From Phyllobacterium phragmitis (GTDB lineage: Bacteria > Pseudomonadota > Alphaproteobacteria > Rhizobiales > Rhizobiaceae), in contig NZ_PVBR01000023.1 of NCBI RefSeq assembly GCF_002980495.1, positions 1-64,000 on the forward strand: 64,000 nt of DNA, read 5' to 3'. The translations under genes were made by a program, and so were the position numbers. The notes under the pieces are model-generated. The model saw only the letters and a program-made list of their open reading frames with translations. It had not been told where the DNA came from and did not search any database. Shown here in pieces: positions 25,476 through 39,578 of this stretch (within the stretch, counting starts at the first letter, position 1; each line of letters begins with the position of its first letter).

Positions 25476-27353
25476 ATGTCCTGGCCTCGACTGCTGCGCC
25501 CTATTCTGGCGATTATTGTCCTTGCGGCGGCAGCCGTTGCGGCAGTCATCGCGGCCCTGCCCTTTATCGTTTCCACCGATGCGATCCGCATCAGACTGGC
25601 GCAGGAACTCAGCGCCTGGACGGGTTACAGCGTCGAACTGCGCCAGCCGCCGAGGCTGACGGTCTTTCCGGTTTTCCAGGCTTCGCTGAGCGACGTCACC
25701 TTGAGCAAACTCGGCCAAAGCGGCCAGCAGCCGGTAATGAGCGCCGATCGTATAGACGTCGAGCTCTCCGCTTTCGACGCGCTGATGGGGCATATCTCAT
25801 TTTCGGAAACACGCCTCATCCGTCCCCGTTTCAGGCTGAACGAGCCGGTGACCGACCTGCCGCAATTGTTTACGGCGGCCGCCAATTCGCAAGGGCGGCT
25901 CGGCATGGTCATCCGCGCGGCGAAGACGCTTGTGGAGAGCAACCCGGACGATCCTCAGATGGACCAGCTCGCATCGCAGCCTTTCGGACGCATCGTCATC
26001 GAGAATGGGTCGCTTGCCTATCGCCGTTTCGGATCACCGCTCGAAGAGCAGGTATCGGACATCAACGGCACGCTCGATTGGCCGCAAACGTCGAGTCCCG
26101 CGAGTTTTCGCGGCCGCGCCAACTGGCGCGGGGAAGCCGCGGAGATCAATTTTTCCGCGAGTCAGGCTCTGATACTGCTCGCCAACGGGATGAGCGCGAT
26201 TACCGCAAGCGTCACATCCAAACCGCTGACATTCACGTTCGACGGCAAAGCAAACATCTCGCAGAACATGTTTTTCGAAGGGGCGCTGACGGCGAACTCA
26301 CCGTCCCTCGGCGACACGATGCGATGGGCCGGCCGGACTTCCTCCGGCGGTTCGTCGATGATCGGCGCGGTCGAGCTTGCGGCGAATGTCACGGTTACGC
26401 CGCAGCGGGCGAAATTCAACGATGTGATGCTGACGACCGACAAGCAATCGGCCAAGGGCGTGATCGAAATCGGGCTGGAGCAGCCGGTGCCCGCCGTCAC
26501 CGGAACGCTCGCCTTTCAGTCGCTCGATCTGCGCTCGCTGATCTCGGCTTTCATCCCGCTGCCCAGAGCGGATGCAGGCGATGAAATCGATACGAGGTTC
26601 GTCAATCAGCTCGATCTCGATCTGCGTCTTTCCGCCCAGAACGCCACGGCCGGTCCGGTCAGCCTCGCCAACCTCGCGGCCGCGGTACAGGTACGTGGCG
26701 GGCGCGCGATCTTCGATATCGGCGATGCCAAGGCGTTCAACGGATCGGTTCAGGCCAATATCCAGATCATCGGCGGTGCGGATGGCGCCAATAGCGAGTT
26801 GCGTTTCAACGGGAGCGATCTGGACAGCGCTGCCCTTGCTTCGACGCTCGGCGTCAAGCAACCCTTCCTGACCGGCAAGGGCGCGGTATCGCTGCTCATG
26901 AAAAGCCCGCTGACGAAATGGTCTTCGCTCCTCGAAAGCGCAAGCGGCAATATCTCGCTTGATCTCGGCAATGGGCAGGTGCAGGGATTCGACTTCAACG
27001 ACTTCATCAACAAGGCCCGCAACGATCGCTTTTTTGCGTTGGAGCGCAAGCAGGATGCCTCTCTGGATTTCAATCGGCTCTCTGTGAAGGCCGCTATCGC
27101 GGAGGGCATCGCCACCCTTGAGAATGCCCGCGTCGAGACCGGCAACGGCGTGCTGACGCTTGCAGGCATCGTCCCGTTCCTCGACAGGAGCCTCGCGCTT
27201 TCCGGCGAAATCGAATTTCCCGCCGCGCCAAACCAGAACCAGGATCAAAACGCTGCGGCGCCCAAGGCGCCGCAACCGATCAATTTCTTCGTCGGCGGCT
27301 CCTGGGACCGGCCCTTCATCTCGCCAACAAGCCGGCCTACTGAGGGGAACTGA
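25476..27353 (+). CDS. AsmA-family protein
   Basis: ATG 25476 chosen as start since it places the N-terminal membrane anchor (RPILAIIVLAAAAVAAVIAA) ten residues in; TTG 25419 would add 19 residues. 625 residues. After the anchor the protein has the AsmA pattern: IVSTDAIRIRLAQELSAWTG near the start, a central repetitive beta-rich region and the AsmA_2 C-terminal block (FDFNDFINKARNDRFFALER, then LENARVETGNGVL). AsmA-like proteins lie in the inner membrane and extend into the periplasm, implicated in lipid transport between membranes. The stop codon TGA directly abuts an octamer repeat array. Confidence 0.85.
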   Translation: MSWPRLLRPILAIIVLAAAAVAAVIAALPFIVSTDAIRIRLAQELSAWTGYSVELRQPPRLTVFPVFQASLSDVTLSKLGQSGQQPVMSADRIDVELSAFDALMGHISFSETRLIRPRFRLNEPVTDLPQLFTAAANSQGRLGMVIRAAKTLVESNPDDPQMDQLASQPFGRIVIENGSLAYRRFGSPLEEQVSDINGTLDWPQTSSPASFRGRANWRGEAAEINFSASQALILLANGMSAITASVTSKPLTFTFDGKANISQNMFFEGALTANSPSLGDTMRWAGRTSSGGSSMIGAVELAANVTVTPQRAKFNDVMLTTDKQSAKGVIEIGLEQPVPAVTGTLAFQSLDLRSLISAFIPLPRADAGDEIDTRFVNQLDLDLRLSAQNATAGPVSLANLAAAVQVRGGRAIFDIGDAKAFNGSVQANIQIIGGADGANSELRFNGSDLDSAALASTLGVKQPFLTGKGAVSLLMKSPLTKWSSLLESASGNISLDLGNGQVQGFDFNDFINKARNDRFFALERKQDASLDFNRLSVKAAIAEGIATLENARVETGNGVLTLAGIVPFLDRSLALSGEIEFPAAPNQNQDQNAAAPKAPQPINFFVGGSWDRPFISPTSRPTEGN

Positions 27354-27401
27354 GGGAGTATGGGAGTATGGGAGTATGGGAGTATGGGAGTATGGGAGTG
27401 T
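27354..27401 (+). repeat. Octamer tandem array A1, unit GGGAGTAT
   Basis: Five perfect copies of GGGAGTAT (27354-27393) and one variant GGGAGTGT (27394-27401). The array begins at the base after the AsmA stop codon. Its inverted counterpart is at 27470-27493, with 68 bp between. Such short-unit arrays usually vary in copy number between strains. Confidence 0.9.
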
Positions 27402-27469
27402 GATACCTTCTCACTTATTCCCTTTAAAGAGTCTTTGTCCGCAAGAGAGGACAATGGGCATCAAAAACA

Positions 27470-27493
27470 TACTGCCTTATTCCCCTACTCCCC
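27470..27493 (-). repeat. Octamer array A2, inverted and degenerate
   Basis: TACTGCCT, TATTCCCC and TACTCCCC follow each other at 8-base spacing; on the minus strand these are AGGCAGTA, GGGGAATA and GGGGAGTA. The array runs into the stop codon of potI (TAG, 27493-27495, minus strand). Between A1 and A2 there is no gene, only a further octamer-like TATTCCCT near 27416. Confidence 0.75.
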
Positions 27494-28311
27494 TAAATCC
27501 GGAACGCCGCCTGTTCGTCGCGAACCCGCTGGACTTCGCGCCGCTTGTTGACAAGCGAGGCGATGATGACGCCTGTCGCGACGATGGCGATCAGAATGGT
27601 GCATATCGCGTTTATCTCCGGCGTCACGCCAAGACGCACCTGGCTGTAGATCTTCATCGGCAAGGTCGTCGCGCCCGGGCCGGAGGTGAAGCTCGCAATC
27701 ACCAGATCGTCGAGCGAAAGCGTGAAGGCGAGCATCCAGCCCGAGACGACGGCCGGCAGGATGGCCGGAAGCGTGATCTTGAAAAAGGTGGTCACGGGCG
27801 GCGCGCCCAGATCCATCGCAGCTTCCTCCAGAGACCGGTCGAAGGTGACGAGCCGGGACTGGACGACCACCGCGACGAAGCACATCGAAAAGGTGATATG
27901 CGCCAATGTCACGGTCCAGAAGCCGCGATCGAAACTGATCGCCACGAAAAGCAGCAGCAGCGACAGGCCGGTGATGACTTCGGGCATGACCAGCGGCGCG
28001 TAGACCATGCCGGAAAACAGCATGCGTCCGCGAAAACGCGTATAGCGCGTGAGCGCGATCGCCGCGAGCGTTCCCAGCACCGTCGCCACGCTTGCTGAGA
28101 GGACACCGACGCGGGCGGTGACCCAGGCGGCATCCATCAGCCCGCGATTGTTGAAGAGCTCGACATACCATTTCGTCGAGAACCCGGCCCAGACGGTGAC
28201 CAAGCGGGATTCATTGAAGGAATAGATCACCAGGAGCACGATGGGCAGATAGAGGAATGCGAAGCCCAGGACGACCGAAGCGATGTTGAAGCGCGACCAG
28301 GTGGTATTCAT
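27493..28311 (-). CDS. potI: Putrescine/spermidine ABC transporter permease PotI
   Basis: A protein of 272 residues, six predicted membrane spans, with the inner-membrane permease loop LEEAAMDLGAPPVTTFFKIT that docks on the ATPase (EAA motif). N-terminal YLPIVLLVIYSFNESRL and LVMPEVITGLSLLLLF match the PotI/PotC group. Last gene of the potF-G-H-I order on the minus strand. Between potH and potI there is a 184-bp spacer with a palindromic repeat, unusual inside such an operon. Substrate by family and order: putrescine. Confidence 0.9.
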   Translation of the reverse strand: MNTTWSRFNIASVVLGFAFLYLPIVLLVIYSFNESRLVTVWAGFSTKWYVELFNNRGLMDAAWVTARVGVLSASVATVLGTLAAIALTRYTRFRGRMLFSGMVYAPLVMPEVITGLSLLLLFVAISFDRGFWTVTLAHITFSMCFVAVVVQSRLVTFDRSLEEAAMDLGAPPVTTFFKITLPAILPAVVSGWMLAFTLSLDDLVIASFTSGPGATTLPMKIYSQVRLGVTPEINAICTILIAIVATGVIIASLVNKRREVQRVRDEQAAFRI

Positions 28312-28335
28312 CGTTTTCTCCTAGCGCCCTCGCCC

Positions 28336-28446
28336 TTCGAGGCTCGCTTCGCTCGCACCTCAGGATGAGGGCTACGGAAGCGCCGCGCCCCTTCATCCTC
28401 ATGGTGAGGTGTGAGCGAAGCGAGCCTCGAACCACGAGGATGAAGG
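28336..28446. repeat. Palindromic intergenic element inside the pot operon
   Basis: Arms TTCGAGGCTCGCTTCGCTC (28336-28354 and on to 28361) and the inverse at 28405-28431 match nearly perfectly (one mismatch in 27). The flanks CATCCTCATGGTGAGG and CACGAGGATG form a second inner hairpin. It is a common dispersed repeat type in Hyphomicrobiales and could act as an RNA-stability or attenuation element between potH and potI. Confidence 0.7.
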
Positions 28447-28495
28447 GGGGCACTGAAAGAGTAATCCGCCACAGTTTTCCTCACAAAACCTCCTC

Positions 28496-30615: not shown

Positions 30616-30792
30616 ACCCCTCATCCGACCGCTTCGCGGCCACCTTCTCCCACAAGGGGAGAAGGAAGAATGCTGCATGAAAGCAAATGCCAATCGCAGA
30701 TGTTGGCGTTTGGCAGATCCGGCCTAGGCAGTCCCCTCCCTTCTCCCCTTGTGGGAGAAGGTGGCCTCGCGAAGCGAGGTCGGATGAGGGGT
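30616..30792. repeat. Large imperfect inverted repeat between potF and potG
   Basis: The left arm (30616-30665, containing TCATCCGACCGCTTCGCGG and CTTCTCCCACAAGGGGAGAAG) is the inverse of the right arm (30740-30792). Each arm also contains its own hairpin. The 75-bp centre is non-coding. This is a widespread rhizobial intergenic element; here it separates the binding-protein gene from the membrane genes and may lower downstream expression relative to potF. Confidence 0.7.
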
Positions 30793-30801
30793 ATGCCCGC
30801 T

Positions 30802-35148: not shown

Positions 35149-35385
35149 ATGGCATCCATCACACGCGTCAAGGAGAGGGCCGAGGAACAATCTTCGGCCA
35201 TGAGCACCGACCAACAGGGCCTCATCCGCATGCTGGCCAATGATCTGCACCGGCTCAATCAATCGGTCATGAAGGCCGTCGAGGCCGGCGTTTCGGTCGA
35301 ACTCGTCCGCTCGGCACGCCATCATGGCGGCGACGGCAATTGGGGGGATCTGCTGATCCCTGTCATCGTCACCCACGGGCGGTGA
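35149..35385 (+). CDS. Small hypothetical protein behind aceA
   Basis: A protein of 78 residues from ATG 35149, with AAAAGGAGA six bases upstream; ATG 35143 is too close to the ribosome site. No known domain. The N-terminal 55 residues look helical (QGLIRMLANDLHRLNQSVMK), the last 20 are Gly/Asp-rich (GGDGNWGDLLIPVIVTHGR). It follows aceA after 25 bp and is probably co-transcribed. The 3' end of the gene, from codon 61 through the stop, is the first copy of a 106-bp tandem repeat. Confidence 0.65.
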   Translation: MASITRVKERAEEQSSAMSTDQQGLIRMLANDLHRLNQSVMKAVEAGVSVELVRSARHHGGDGNWGDLLIPVIVTHGR

Positions 35386-35605
35386 CGTTGCGCCGCCATA
35401 ATTTTTCCTTTGCGTGCCTGCGGCAGCGCGGGCAGGCGACGGCAATTGGGGGGATCTGCTGATCCCCGTCATCGTCACCCACGGGCGGTAACGTTGCGCC
35501 GCCATGATTTTTCCTTTGCGTGCCTGCGGCAGCGCGGGCAGGCGACGGCAATTGGGGGACCTGCTGATCCCCGTCATCGTCACCCGCGGACGGTGACATC
35601 GTACA
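35329..35605 (+). repeat. 106-bp tandem repeat, about 2.6 copies
   Basis: GGCGACGGCAATTGGGGG recurs at 35329, 35435 and 35541, exactly 106 bp apart, each time followed by CTGCTGATCCC and the GTCATCGTCACCC segment. The unit covers the last 18 codons of the small gene plus 50 bp of non-coding DNA. Because 106 is not a multiple of three, the later copies are not part of that protein's frame. Copies differ at only a few positions, so the duplication is recent. Confidence 0.9.
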
Positions 35606-36232: not shown

Positions 36233-36365
36233 AAATCTTTGACTGGCTTGGATATATCAGCGAGGCTGTAAGCTATTGAATGGACGCGTCGCCTGCCCCG
36301 AAACCGATTTCGGTTTTCAGGCCGATGCTATATCATGGTGCGACGAAACAATTTTTTGGTGATTG

Positions 36366-37799
36366 ATGCCTGCTGATATGCCCGAGAAGAAATCGGTGCG
36401 CTCGACAAAGCGCCGCCGGACGCCCGCTTATGTCAAATCGCTGCGTGGCGTGAAGAATTGGCGTGAGGTATCGGAATGGCTGGCGTGGCGCGACATCGAA
36501 GATATCGAGTGCATCACCCCTGATCAGGCCGGCGTGGCGCGCGGCAAGATGATGCCGTCGAAGAAATTCACCTCCAACACATCGCTCGCCCTGCCCTCGG
36601 CGGTTTTCATGGCGACGATCTCCGGAGGCTATCCGGAAAACGGCGGCGGCTTTTCCTATCCGGAAGACGATGGCGACCTGAAGCTGGTGCCTGATCTTAC
36701 GACACTTTCCCTCGTGCCGTGGGAGAGCGACCCGACGGCGCAGGTGATCTGCGACCTCGCCCATCAAGACGGGCGCGTGGTCGAGTTCACGCCGCGCAAC
36801 GTGCTGCGCCGTGTCATTGCCGCATACGACAGGCTCGGCCTGCGTCCCGTCGTGGCGCCGGAGATCGAGTTTTACCTGGTGCGCAAGAACCCCGATCCCG
36901 ATTATCCGCTGACACCGCCCGTCGGCCGTTCGGGCCGCGCCATCGGCGGCGGCCAGGGTTATTCGATTGCCGGCGTCAACGAGTTCGACGAGTTGATCGA
37001 CGACATCTACCATTTCTCCGAGAGCCAGGGACTGGAGATCGATACGCTGATCCATGAAGAGGGTGCGGGGCAGCTCGAGATCAATCTGCGCCATGGCGAT
37101 CCGGTGGAATTGGCCGATCAGGTCTTCATGTTCAAGCGCACCATTCGCGAGGCTGCGCTGAAGCACGAGATGTATGCAACCTTCATGGCCAAGCCCATTC
37201 AGGGCCAGCCGGGATCGGCGATGCATATCCACCAGTCCATCCTCGACAAGAAGACCGGACGCAACATATTCACCGATGAGGACGGCAGCGAGAGCGATGC
37301 CTTCCGTCATTTCATCGGCGGGATGCAGAAGCATGTGCCGAACGCGCTTGTGATGTTCGCGCCTTACGTGAACTCCTATCGTCGCCTGACCAAGGCGGCG
37401 TCGGCGCCGGTAAATGTCAAATGGGGCTACGATAACCGAACGACGGCCTTCCGCGTGCCCCGCTCTGACCCGTCGTCGCGTCGTGTCGAAAACCGCATCC
37501 CATCCTCCGACGCCAATCCCTATCTGGCGCTGGCCGCATCGCTGGCATGCGGGCTGATCGGCGTGATGAACAAGATCAAACCGGACCAGCCGGCTTCGAC
37601 CACTGTGAACGACAATGAGATCGAATTGCCCCGCGGACTGATCGAAGCCGCGTCGCTGTTCGAGAACGACACGGAGCTGCGGGACATGCTGGGCGATGCC
37701 TTCGTCACGACCTATGCCGCCATCAAGCGGGCGGAGTTCGAGACCTTCATGGAGGTGATTAGTCCTTGGGAGCGGGAGTTTTTGCTGCTGAATGTTTAG
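36366..37799 (+). CDS. puuA: Gamma-glutamylputrescine synthetase (glutamine-synthetase family)
   Basis: ATG 36366 gives 477 residues; ATG 36378 is a possible alternative and no ribosome site decides. Glutamine-synthetase fold: metal-binding VAPEIEFYLV, HEEGAGQLEINL and GSAMHIHQS, and the C-terminal signature region NRTTAFRVPRSD. The basic, non-GlnA N-terminus and the neighbouring puuB gene point to PuuA, which joins glutamate to putrescine with ATP as first step of putrescine breakdown. The TAG stop (37797-37799) is formed at the first base of an octamer array. Confidence 0.8.
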   Translation: MPADMPEKKSVRSTKRRRTPAYVKSLRGVKNWREVSEWLAWRDIEDIECITPDQAGVARGKMMPSKKFTSNTSLALPSAVFMATISGGYPENGGGFSYPEDDGDLKLVPDLTTLSLVPWESDPTAQVICDLAHQDGRVVEFTPRNVLRRVIAAYDRLGLRPVVAPEIEFYLVRKNPDPDYPLTPPVGRSGRAIGGGQGYSIAGVNEFDELIDDIYHFSESQGLEIDTLIHEEGAGQLEINLRHGDPVELADQVFMFKRTIREAALKHEMYATFMAKPIQGQPGSAMHIHQSILDKKTGRNIFTDEDGSESDAFRHFIGGMQKHVPNALVMFAPYVNSYRRLTKAASAPVNVKWGYDNRTTAFRVPRSDPSSRRVENRIPSSDANPYLALAASLACGLIGVMNKIKPDQPASTTVNDNEIELPRGLIEAASLFENDTELRDMLGDAFVTTYAAIKRAEFETFMEVISPWEREFLLLNV

Positions 37800-37860
37800 G
37801 GGAGTAGGGGAGTAGGGGAGTAGGGGAGTAGGGGAGTAGGGGAGTAGGGGAGTAGGGGAA
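37799..37860 (+). repeat. Octamer tandem array B1, unit GGGGAGTA
   Basis: Seven perfect copies of GGGGAGTA (37799-37854) and a partial eighth (GGGGAA). The first G is also the last base of the puuA stop codon. The unit differs from array A1 by one base. The inverted partner lies at 38244-38275, with one gene between. Confidence 0.95.
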
Positions 37861-37878
37861 ATATGCGGGGGCGCAACT

Positions 37879-38241
37879 ATGGCAATCAATTCTTATCGCG
37901 ATCTTCTTGCATGGCAGCAAGCAATGGAGTTGGTGATCGCGATATATAAATCGACCGAGTCTTGGCCAAGAGAAGAAATATATGGCCTGACAAGTCAGGT
38001 TCGCCGGGCTGCCGTTTCTGTCCCGGCCAATATTGCGGAAGGCTATGGACGCGACACCCGTGGCTCCTATCAGCAGTTTCTGCGCATTGCCCAGGGTTCG
38101 CTGAAGGAAGTAGAAACACACTTGCTTATAGCTGAGAGATTGGGCTTCAGCAAAAAAGAGGTGGTTGCCCGGATGATGGCAATGAGTGAAAGCATCGGTA
38201 AATTGCTAAGGCTCCTTATCCGCAGGCTATCGGAAACCTAA
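37879..38241 (+). CDS. Four-helix-bundle protein of the S23 / 23S rRNA intervening-sequence family
   Basis: A protein of 120 residues: RDLLAWQQAMELVIAIYKST, EEIYGLTSQVRRAAVSVPAN, IAEGYGR and SLKEVETHLLIAERLGF are the hallmarks of the TIGR02436 four-helix-bundle family, known from rRNA intervening sequences and related to the Avd proteins of diversity-generating retroelements. Biochemical function is unproven; members bind nucleic acid through a basic surface. There is no rRNA or reverse transcriptase here. The gene starts 18 bp after octamer array B1 and ends two bases before inverted array B2, between puuA and puuB, so it looks inserted into a polyamine gene pair. Confidence 0.9.
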   Translation: MAINSYRDLLAWQQAMELVIAIYKSTESWPREEIYGLTSQVRRAAVSVPANIAEGYGRDTRGSYQQFLRIAQGSLKEVETHLLIAERLGFSKKEVVARMMAMSESIGKLLRLLIRRLSET

Positions 38242-38243
38242 CA

Positions 38244-38275
38244 TACTCCCTTACTGCCCTATTCCCCTACTCCCT
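38244..38275 (-). repeat. Octamer array B2, inverted
   Basis: TACTCCCT, TACTGCCC, TATTCCCC and TACTCCCT follow at exact 8-base spacing; on the minus strand AGGGAGTA, GGGGAATA, GGGCAGTA and AGGGAGTA. One unit (GGGCAGTA) is a rotation of AGGGCAGT, the octamer of the Brucella HOOF-print VNTR loci. The array begins two bases after the four-helix-bundle stop and ends 16 bp before puuB. Confidence 0.85.
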
Positions 38276-38291
38276 TAACGCGGAGCTTCCC

Positions 38292-39578
38292 GTGCCCCAC
38301 CAATCCCCGATCTCTCCCGGCCTTTCCTGGTATGAAGCGAGCTTGACCGCGCGTCCGCAATATCCGGCGCTCGACGGCTCGCGGCAGGCGGATGTCGTCA
38401 TCGTCGGCGGCGGCTATACCGGCCTTTCCGCCGCCTATCACCTGGCTGCTGCCGGCGCGGATGTCGTGCTGCTCGATGCCGCGCGGTTCGGCGATGGCGC
38501 GTCGGGGCGCAATGGCGGCCAGCTCAATACCGGACAGCGCGCCTGGGCGGAGGAGATGGAGGCCGAACTCGGCCTCACCCGCGCCAAGGCATTGTTCGAC
38601 ATTGCCGAGGAAGCCAAGGCGCATCTCCTGCAATTTGCCGAGACGCACGGGATCGACATCGACTATATGCCGGGCCAGATGTCGGTCGTGCACAAGCCGC
38701 GTTATCTCGAACACTACCGCGCACATGCCGAACTGATGGCATCGCGCTTCGATTATCCCGACATCCGTTTCATGGATGCAAAGGAGACAGCCGAACGGCT
38801 CGGCTCGAAACGCTATTTCGGCGGCATTTACGACAAAGGCACCGGTCATATCCATCCGCTGAAGCTCATCGTCGGAACGGCCAGCGCTGCGGCGAAGGCG
38901 GGCGCGCATCTTTTCGAAAACACTGGGGCTACAGCCATCAGCTCCGAAAATGGACGCGTCACGGTGACCACCGCCAGGGGTAGCGTGACGGCGCCCAAGG
39001 CTTTGCTCGCCGTCAATGCCTATGGCGGTACACTCGAACCCGTCAGTGCGGCCCATGTCATGCCGATCCGCTCCTTCATCGGCGCGACCGTTCCGCTTGG
39101 AAACGACAGTTCCGTACTGCCGGGCGGTGAATCGGTCGATGATTCGCGCTTCGTGGTGCGCTATTTTCGCCGCCTGAGCGATGGGCGGCTCTTATTCGGC
39201 GGGCGTGAAGCCTATACCGCCGACAACCCGCGCGAGATCCGCACCCATATCCGCCGGCAGATCGCCGAAATCTATCCCGCGCTCGCCGATATCGAGATCA
39301 CCCATGCATGGGGCGGCTCCGTCGGCATCACCATGCCGCGCAAGCCCTTCGTGCGCGAGGTCATGCCCAATGTCATCTCGGCGGGCGGCTATTCCGGCCA
39401 TGGCGTGATGCTCGCCAATTTCATGGGCAAGCTCTATGCGGAGACGCTCGCCGGCAATCGGGACCGGCTGAAGCTCTTCGAGGATCTGCACATCCCGCCC
39501 TTCCCCGGCGGACGCAGTTTCCGCACGCCACTGCTCTTCCTGGCGCTTTCCTGGTACGCGCTGATCGACAGGATCTAG
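38292..39578 (+). CDS. puuB: Gamma-glutamylputrescine oxidoreductase (FAD)
   Basis: A protein of 428 residues from GTG 38292 (GGAG upstream). DAO-type FAD-binding fold with the dinucleotide motif VVIVGGGYTGLSAAYHLAAA near residue 35 and the C-terminal HAWGGSVGITMPRKPFV and GYSGHGVMLANFMGKL blocks typical of PuuB/OrdL. It oxidises gamma-glutamylputrescine made by PuuA to the aldehyde. Together with potFGHI this gives uptake and catabolism of putrescine in one 12-kb stretch. Confidence 0.85.
   Translation: MPHQSPISPGLSWYEASLTARPQYPALDGSRQADVVIVGGGYTGLSAAYHLAAAGADVVLLDAARFGDGASGRNGGQLNTGQRAWAEEMEAELGLTRAKALFDIAEEAKAHLLQFAETHGIDIDYMPGQMSVVHKPRYLEHYRAHAELMASRFDYPDIRFMDAKETAERLGSKRYFGGIYDKGTGHIHPLKLIVGTASAAAKAGAHLFENTGATAISSENGRVTVTTARGSVTAPKALLAVNAYGGTLEPVSAAHVMPIRSFIGATVPLGNDSSVLPGGESVDDSRFVVRYFRRLSDGRLLFGGREAYTADNPREIRTHIRRQIAEIYPALADIEITHAWGGSVGITMPRKPFVREVMPNVISAGGYSGHGVMLANFMGKLYAETLAGNRDRLKLFEDLHIPPFPGGRSFRTPLLFLALSWYALIDRI

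Follow-up and report, generated by a model that had tools for sequence, protein, structure and literature searches.

An S23-family gene stands between two protein genes in the alphaproteobacterium Phyllobacterium phragmitis rather than within 23S rRNA, the location that named the family, and it is bracketed by two arrays of octamers in opposite orientation. What is such a gene doing there, and do gene and arrays belong together? An earlier note on this DNA, made from the sequence alone, had proposed that they form one inserting unit. We followed this up in the window (by which we mean the whole 64,000-nucleotide stretch analysed, from contig NZ_PVBR01000023.1), in the rest of the genome, in relatives, and in S23 genes from many phyla.

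The S23 block and its gene-less copies

The block occupies 37797-38278 of the window (Table 1). Its left array contains seven exact copies of GGGGAGTA at 37799-37854, as the earlier note had counted, in a tandem array of 7.9 copies with 100% matches, and in 100 shuffled versions of the window eight matches to GGGGAGTA were never reached. The TAG stop of the upstream gene overlaps the edge of this array. The S23 reading frame is complete, as had been claimed, but does not start 18 bp after the units: its ATG lies 24 bp past the seventh full unit and 19 bp past the end of the tandem call. The right-arm octamers, TACTCCCT TACTGCCC TATTCCCC TACTCCCT, do begin two bases past the S23 stop and in the opposite orientation, but they are degenerate, and none of the four is an exact inverse of GGGGAGTA. 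The site had been called puuA-puuB; the neighbours are indeed glutamine synthetase-like (Gln-synt_C, 1.8e-106, with the GGputSyn model far under its cut-off) and a DAO-family oxidoreductase, and the two gene names are approximate only.

Table 1. Coordinates of the S23 block, its host genes and a gene-less copy in the window
Feature	Position	Strand	Basis
Intergenic gene-less copy: (GGGAGTAT)5.8, then a spacer and inverted octamers	27344..27496		tandem-repeat call, sequence
Upstream host gene, glutamine synthetase-like, puuA-like	36363..37799	+	ORF, profile match
Left arm, (GGGGAGTA)7.9, G-rich strand pointing inward	37797..37859	+	tandem-repeat call, unit matching
S23 / 23S_rRNA_IVP / TIGR02436 four-helix-bundle gene, 120 aa	37879..38241	+	ORF, profile matches; fold by predicted model
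Right arm, four degenerate inverted octamers; inner end AACATA	38244..38278	-	sequence
Downstream host gene, DAO-family oxidoreductase, puuB-like	38292..39578	+	ORF, profile match

In profile searches the window protein matched Pfam 23S_rRNA_IVP (PF05635, 1.2e-36), NF008911 (6.9e-57) and TIGR02436 (1.3e-35), scoring above the family cut-offs of PF05635 (125.6 bits vs 33.8) and TIGR02436 (121.9 vs 24). Its predicted model (pLDDT 97) is a four-helix bundle as in 2GSC and 2RLD (Foldseek 1.2e-8 and 2.1e-4). The nearest solved relative, 2GSC, is XCC0516, with five chains in the crystal entry, and is called an assembly of five four-helix bundles in a title cited by PMC3936711. No transposase was matched by the S23 element (Pfam gives PF05635 only, and further profile sets also returned none), no known catalytic domain is among the S23 profile matches, and defence-system models matched neither S23 protein of this genome. 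The family is still termed functionally uncharacterised in the passages of PMC11270868 and PMC10053308 that deal with it.

A gene-less copy of the element, overlooked in the earlier note, lies elsewhere in the window (Table 1), and many more are found in the genome, where GGGARTANGGGARTA has 86 forward and 65 reverse matches against 5 and 5 for a reversed control pattern. We examined 27 gene-less copies together with the S23 element, drawn from the first ~100 places listed and the earlier loci, with two chance rows omitted. The gene-less copies are dispersed and consist of an arm, a loop (mostly <60 bases) and an inverted arm, the left arm having 3-4 units in 15 of the 27 by script count (range 2-10). 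Twenty-one have an inner TATGTT or AACATA, the motif with which the S23 element's right arm likewise ends. Thirteen start directly after a stop-like triplet, to which we give no weight because the unit itself ends in TAA or TAG. The genome also carries a second S23 gene, at nuoC|nuoD (names by eye), both of whose arms are built of another unit, GTGAATG/A.

The window contains repeats of other kinds as well. Those at 28317-28447, which look like a RIME-type element, and at 30616-30793 are dispersed and have many copies in the relatives G001 and G004. A 106-bp tandem repeat of 2.5 copies (35329-35597) lies downstream of an isocitrate-lyase-like gene (by eye) and extends across the 3' or 5' limit of a small ORF.

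Presence and absence of the element in relatives

The puuA|puuB site and the gene-less site at 27344-27496 were compared in 12 relatives, with flanks 67-92% identical at the compared sites. At puuA|puuB, an S23 gene with related octamer arrays is present in G001, G003, G021, G071, G066, G055 and G041, and the site is empty in G002 (26 bp) and G004 (28 bp). G005 has an S23 relic together with part of the right arm, and neither unit was matched anywhere in its genome; the S23 relic of G012 has a left arm of GGGAGTA type and a right arm of GGCAGTA type; and G035 has gene-less arms of GTGAATG type. At the gene-less site, G001 has a similar spacer with both arms changed to GGGCAGTA, G002 looks decayed, G003 retains one or two units within 42 bp, G005 (36 bp) and G021 (41 bp) are without an array, and G004 has several hundred bp of unrelated inserted DNA; no left flank could be located in the remaining six of the 12.

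The puuB-site S23 genes fall on one side of one tree branch, with one change (SH-aLRT 89, under the starred level), so that S23 inheritance looks mostly vertical. Nested in the same group are an S23 gene of G001 at another locus and a five-row group with 7-mer units, whose two checked rows lie at a third locus, and hence gene-bearing units move at times. The S23 gene copy seems to move rarely, the numerous copies being gene-less hairpins, and in this respect the proposal of a single inserting unit does not hold as worded; the empty sites and the other loci bear it out in part. Empty sites, arrays of varying length and S23 genes with arrays at unrelated loci, the three things that the earlier note had suggested looking for, were all found, the last at nuoC|nuoD, ATP-grasp|alphaE, carA|carB, accB|accC and cas6|cas4 (names by eye from translations or DNA, except cas6/cas4). 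A gene always at puuA-puuB with arrays independent of it, which the note had set against its own idea, was not found.

Inverted arms around S23 genes and the units they carry

To explore how general this architecture is, we scored the flanks of S23 genes for inverted arms, with a threshold of >=15. By profile search, PF05635 occurs in 27 of 121 relatives and, across the phylum, in 62 of 398 genomes. The threshold was reached by 56 of 98 Pseudomonadota S23 genes with both flanks (far flanks 0/97, mismatched pairs 23/490; six short-flank genes and two fragment rows excluded) and by 41 of 79 in named genomes from many phyla (far flanks 0/70, mismatched pairs 3/395; five short-flank genes excluded). 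Pooling the sets and removing matches of <80 model positions, flanks of <120 bp and duplicates left 205 S23 genes. Inverted arms match strongly in 119 of these, and 144 show either such arms or clear periodicity. Eighty-six are under the arm threshold and 61 under both the arm and the periodicity thresholds; the fractions with arrays are lower bounds, because the thresholds miss true arrays such as those of L224, which can be seen by eye. An Rfam scan of 20 S23 loci without detected arrays found no rRNA and one FMN riboswitch.

Periods in the 117 clear cases were seven (93), eight (20) and nine (4), with 85 distinct units among them and more G than C in the 5'-arm unit in 99. The two arms of one gene usually agree, being within one mismatch in 92 of 115 cases vs 92 of 1122 mismatched pairs, counts which are not independent evidence since the set was preselected for matching arms. 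Same-direction instead of inverted arrays within one mismatch were seen at three of the 115, and also in the main arrays of L221.

Individual loci illustrate the diversity of units and sites. In a Clostridia genome with 16 S23 matches, eight of the 15 examined have matching arms, no two of them with the same unit, and the rest have a one-sided array or none. All ten plasmid S23 loci examined, from 24 matching records, are cyanobacterial; heptamers stand on at least one side in all ten and the arm score is >=15 in seven. Two of these cyanobacterial genes, L214 and L221, sit at cas6|cas4 and are accompanied by heptamer arrays, and 18 S23 genes in cas loci are noted in the passage of PMC3936711 on such loci. 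In X. codiaei, S23 genes occur at carA|carB and at accB|accC (names by eye from DNA), the latter inside GGGATTC-type arrays, and the genome has 207 matches of GGGAWTCGGGAWTC, a unit of this type with no match in nine other genomes. Two further observations concern S23 genes without arrays. L058 has near-identical repeats on both sides of an S23-family gene and a nearby ORF with a YxDD-like motif, and is probably a DGR Avd; and L234-L237, in a genome with 16 S23 matches (G511), are distant S23 paralogs without detected arrays, whose role may differ.

Related S23 proteins tend to share unit and period. Mapped on the S23 tree, the period label needs 11 changes, where 300 shuffles gave a mean of 22.8 and never fewer than 19, and clear arrays have period 8 in 11/11 cases at the puuB site, and period 7 in 14/14 at the nuoD site and 7/8 at the alphaE site. 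From S23 identities of 0.2-0.35 up to >0.85, units are at most one edit apart in 1, 2, 5, 27, 60 and 100% of pairs (top bin 12/12). GGGGAGTA is thus not special, as the unit differs between S23 lineages.

Arrays of a given unit are concentrated in genomes with the matching S23. Among the 121 relatives, GGGARTAN has 151, 56, 167, 151 and 22 matches in the five genomes with a matching S23 and >=10 in two of the other 116; GTGAATR has 41, 35, 19 and 130 in its four matching genomes and >=10 in six of the other 117 (Fisher at >=10 matches, 1e-7 and 2.5e-5 respectively, with phylogeny ignored and the counts including the S23 genes' own arms). The association shows a double dissociation, with only GGGARTAN matches in G021 and G071 and only GTGAATR matches in G040 and G068. 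Orphan arrays exist: GTGAATR arrays without a detected S23 in G013 (51 matches), G057 (18) and G063 (13), for which loss, an assembly gap or another partner are candidate explanations; GTGAATR arrays without the matching S23 type in G064 (31), G003 (26) and G037 (21); and GGGARTAN arrays without a matching S23 in G004 (48) and G002 (26). Nor does every S23 have dispersed copies, since in G507 all five matches of the tested unit sit at the S23 gene.

S23 as a candidate partner of the repeats

The architecture in many phyla, the agreement of the arms, the lineage-related unit and period, the gene-less copies, the unit-S23 association, the empty sites, the relics and the difference of both arms at one site together are the observed basis for what follows. 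On balance, we think S23 is a trans-acting partner of inverted tandem-repeat elements in the manner of REPINs and RAYTs, with binding, the kind of nucleic acid bound and a role of S23 in copying all inferred. RAYT proteins are Y1/HUH transposases. The likeness lies in a gene with a short repeat inverted on its two sides, in intergenic, scattered pairs of inverted repeats that enclose a short loop and no gene, and in a repeat type that pairs with the gene (in part from PMC3116915), and the window element likewise shares the inverted short repeats at its gene with the dispersed copies. In contrast, S23 is a four-helix bundle whose only Pfam match is PF05635, and its arms are tandem arrays of 7-9 bp units, whereas a REPIN arm is a single palindrome. 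The S23 system would thus work like REPIN/RAYT but is not a member, for want of a transposase match, a lack that also sets it apart from IS elements and MITEs.

In the mechanism we propose, each lineage would have a gene-bearing copy, S23 between two arms each commonly of about four 7-9 bp units, and other copies, made of arm, short loop and inverted arm but no gene, would be scattered between genes in some genomes. S23 is likely to recognise the tandem units that belong to its lineage, perhaps in hairpin single-stranded DNA or in RNA, and this recognition may let the elements spread, persist and stay uniform, as has been proposed for RAYT proteins and REPINs. The strand-cutting enzyme may be one of the host. 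A multi-subunit protein on tandem sites is an attractive picture, four being the commonest number of units, a mode partly set by the detection threshold.

The alternative with most to recommend it, though we regard it as unlikely, is a host role at the RNA level, in which S23 would govern the stability, processing or translation of operon mRNAs by binding the hairpins that their arrays form, array spread being secondary. The six element copies tested fold better than their own shuffles (z -2.8 to -11.1), several S23 sites are inside operons, the fold resembles that of Avd, a component of DGR ribonucleoprotein structures, S23 ORFs occur in rRNA insertion sequences (as the passages of PMC11270868 on them describe), and most such Xanthomonas repeats are transcribed (PMC4692102). 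However, the single gene-less copy compared differs in presence between close relatives, its neighbours and those of S23 have no common function by eye, and the fast turnover of units is unlike a conserved regulon.

Less probable still is a passive origin, with arrays growing by polymerase slippage, palindrome correction at replication forks keeping the arms similar, and S23 a passenger. Palindrome correction is an established process, and together with slippage it could keep arms alike without any protein. Slippage is also the published guess for heptamers (PMC4692102), and orphan arrays are consistent with it. Such a model leaves unexplained why, among 202 ORFs of the window and the 12 syntenic regions, the seven that reach the arm threshold are all S23 genes (the S23 of G055 not included), why period and unit track S23 relatedness, and why unit-specific arrays are concentrated in genomes with a matching S23.

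We give very little credence to the addition of units by a reverse transcriptase (DGR-like or telomerase-like) with S23 acting like Avd. The window model does match Avd (4DWL, TM 0.80, E 1.3e-2) and the DGR ribonucleoprotein in fold, more weakly than 2GSC and 2RLD, with weak Avd PHROG matches (9.9e-5 and 4.6e-6) and a similarity of Avd to PF05635 remarked on in the relevant lines of PMC10053308, and RVT_1 was matched in eight of ten genomes searched. The earlier note's statement that reverse transcriptase is absent is correct for the locus, where the neighbours are the glutamine synthetase-like and DAO genes, and the genome itself has two RVT_1 matches, both on contigs other than that of the window. 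The array-rich G003 and G021 (167 and 151 array matches) have no RVT_1 match genome-wide (draft genomes, 99% completeness), so an RVT_1-type enzyme is not needed and reverse-transcriptase dependence as a general need is rejected; L058, with its S23-family gene beside a putative reverse transcriptase ORF (simple motif) and DGR-like repeats, has no arrays. Selection for G-quadruplexes from four G-tracts per array, to which the four-unit preference in Xanthomonas and Nostoc has been ascribed (PMC4692102) and with which G-richer 5'-arm units agree, is scarcely credible as the general cause, contradicted by units without any GG, in which four is also the commonest number (32/94 arms).

Returning to S23 as a partner of the repeats, several known systems come close. 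The window arrays resemble the STRR heptamers of cyanobacteria in being tandem 7-8-mers between genes, a comparison drawn in cyanobacteria from plasmid S23 loci only. The GGGAATC arrays of Xanthomonas are described in the corresponding sections of PMC4692102 as intergenic tandem 7-mers with a four-unit preference and many inverted pairs, few inverted pairs being reported for Nostoc; those sections name no partner gene, and the link with S23 is new. Insertions in 23S (and 16S) rRNA genes encode proteins of the same family, unlike the window copy between protein genes, and ORF-less insertions at rRNA sites are described beside LAGLIDADG ones (both in the parts of PMC11270868 on insertions). The TAACTGA repeats of Beggiatoaceae are also intergenic tandem 7-mers, for which a repeat-binding protein as the mobile part has been speculated, but they differ from S23 arms in forming 169 direct sets with only one inverted pair reported (the account of these repeats in PMC4679880).

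A wider reading, which we offer tentatively and hold a little less probable than its negation, is that of a pan-prokaryotic class of mobile repeats run by a protein without transposase ancestry. Each S23 lineage would read a tandem 7-9-nt word of its own, protein and word evolving together, and S23 would keep the arms uniform and spread gene-less copies; STRRs, the Xanthomonas GGGAATC arrays, cas-locus S23 genes and perhaps rRNA intervening sequences would be its manifestations. No publication linking S23 with such arrays was found among the matches listed in open-licence PMC, a collection outside which preprints and most subscription papers lie. The results suggest a widespread self-spreading DNA element whose protein partner was previously unrecognised.

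The Xanthomonas and Nostoc heptamer arrays have no agreed role (PMC4692102), and joining them with S23 gives a directly testable explanation for both: is a protein's own unit bound, and a foreign one not? Should the recognition word of this small multi-subunit protein shift as the protein itself does, the family would also offer a natural specificity series for the evolution of nucleic-acid recognition.
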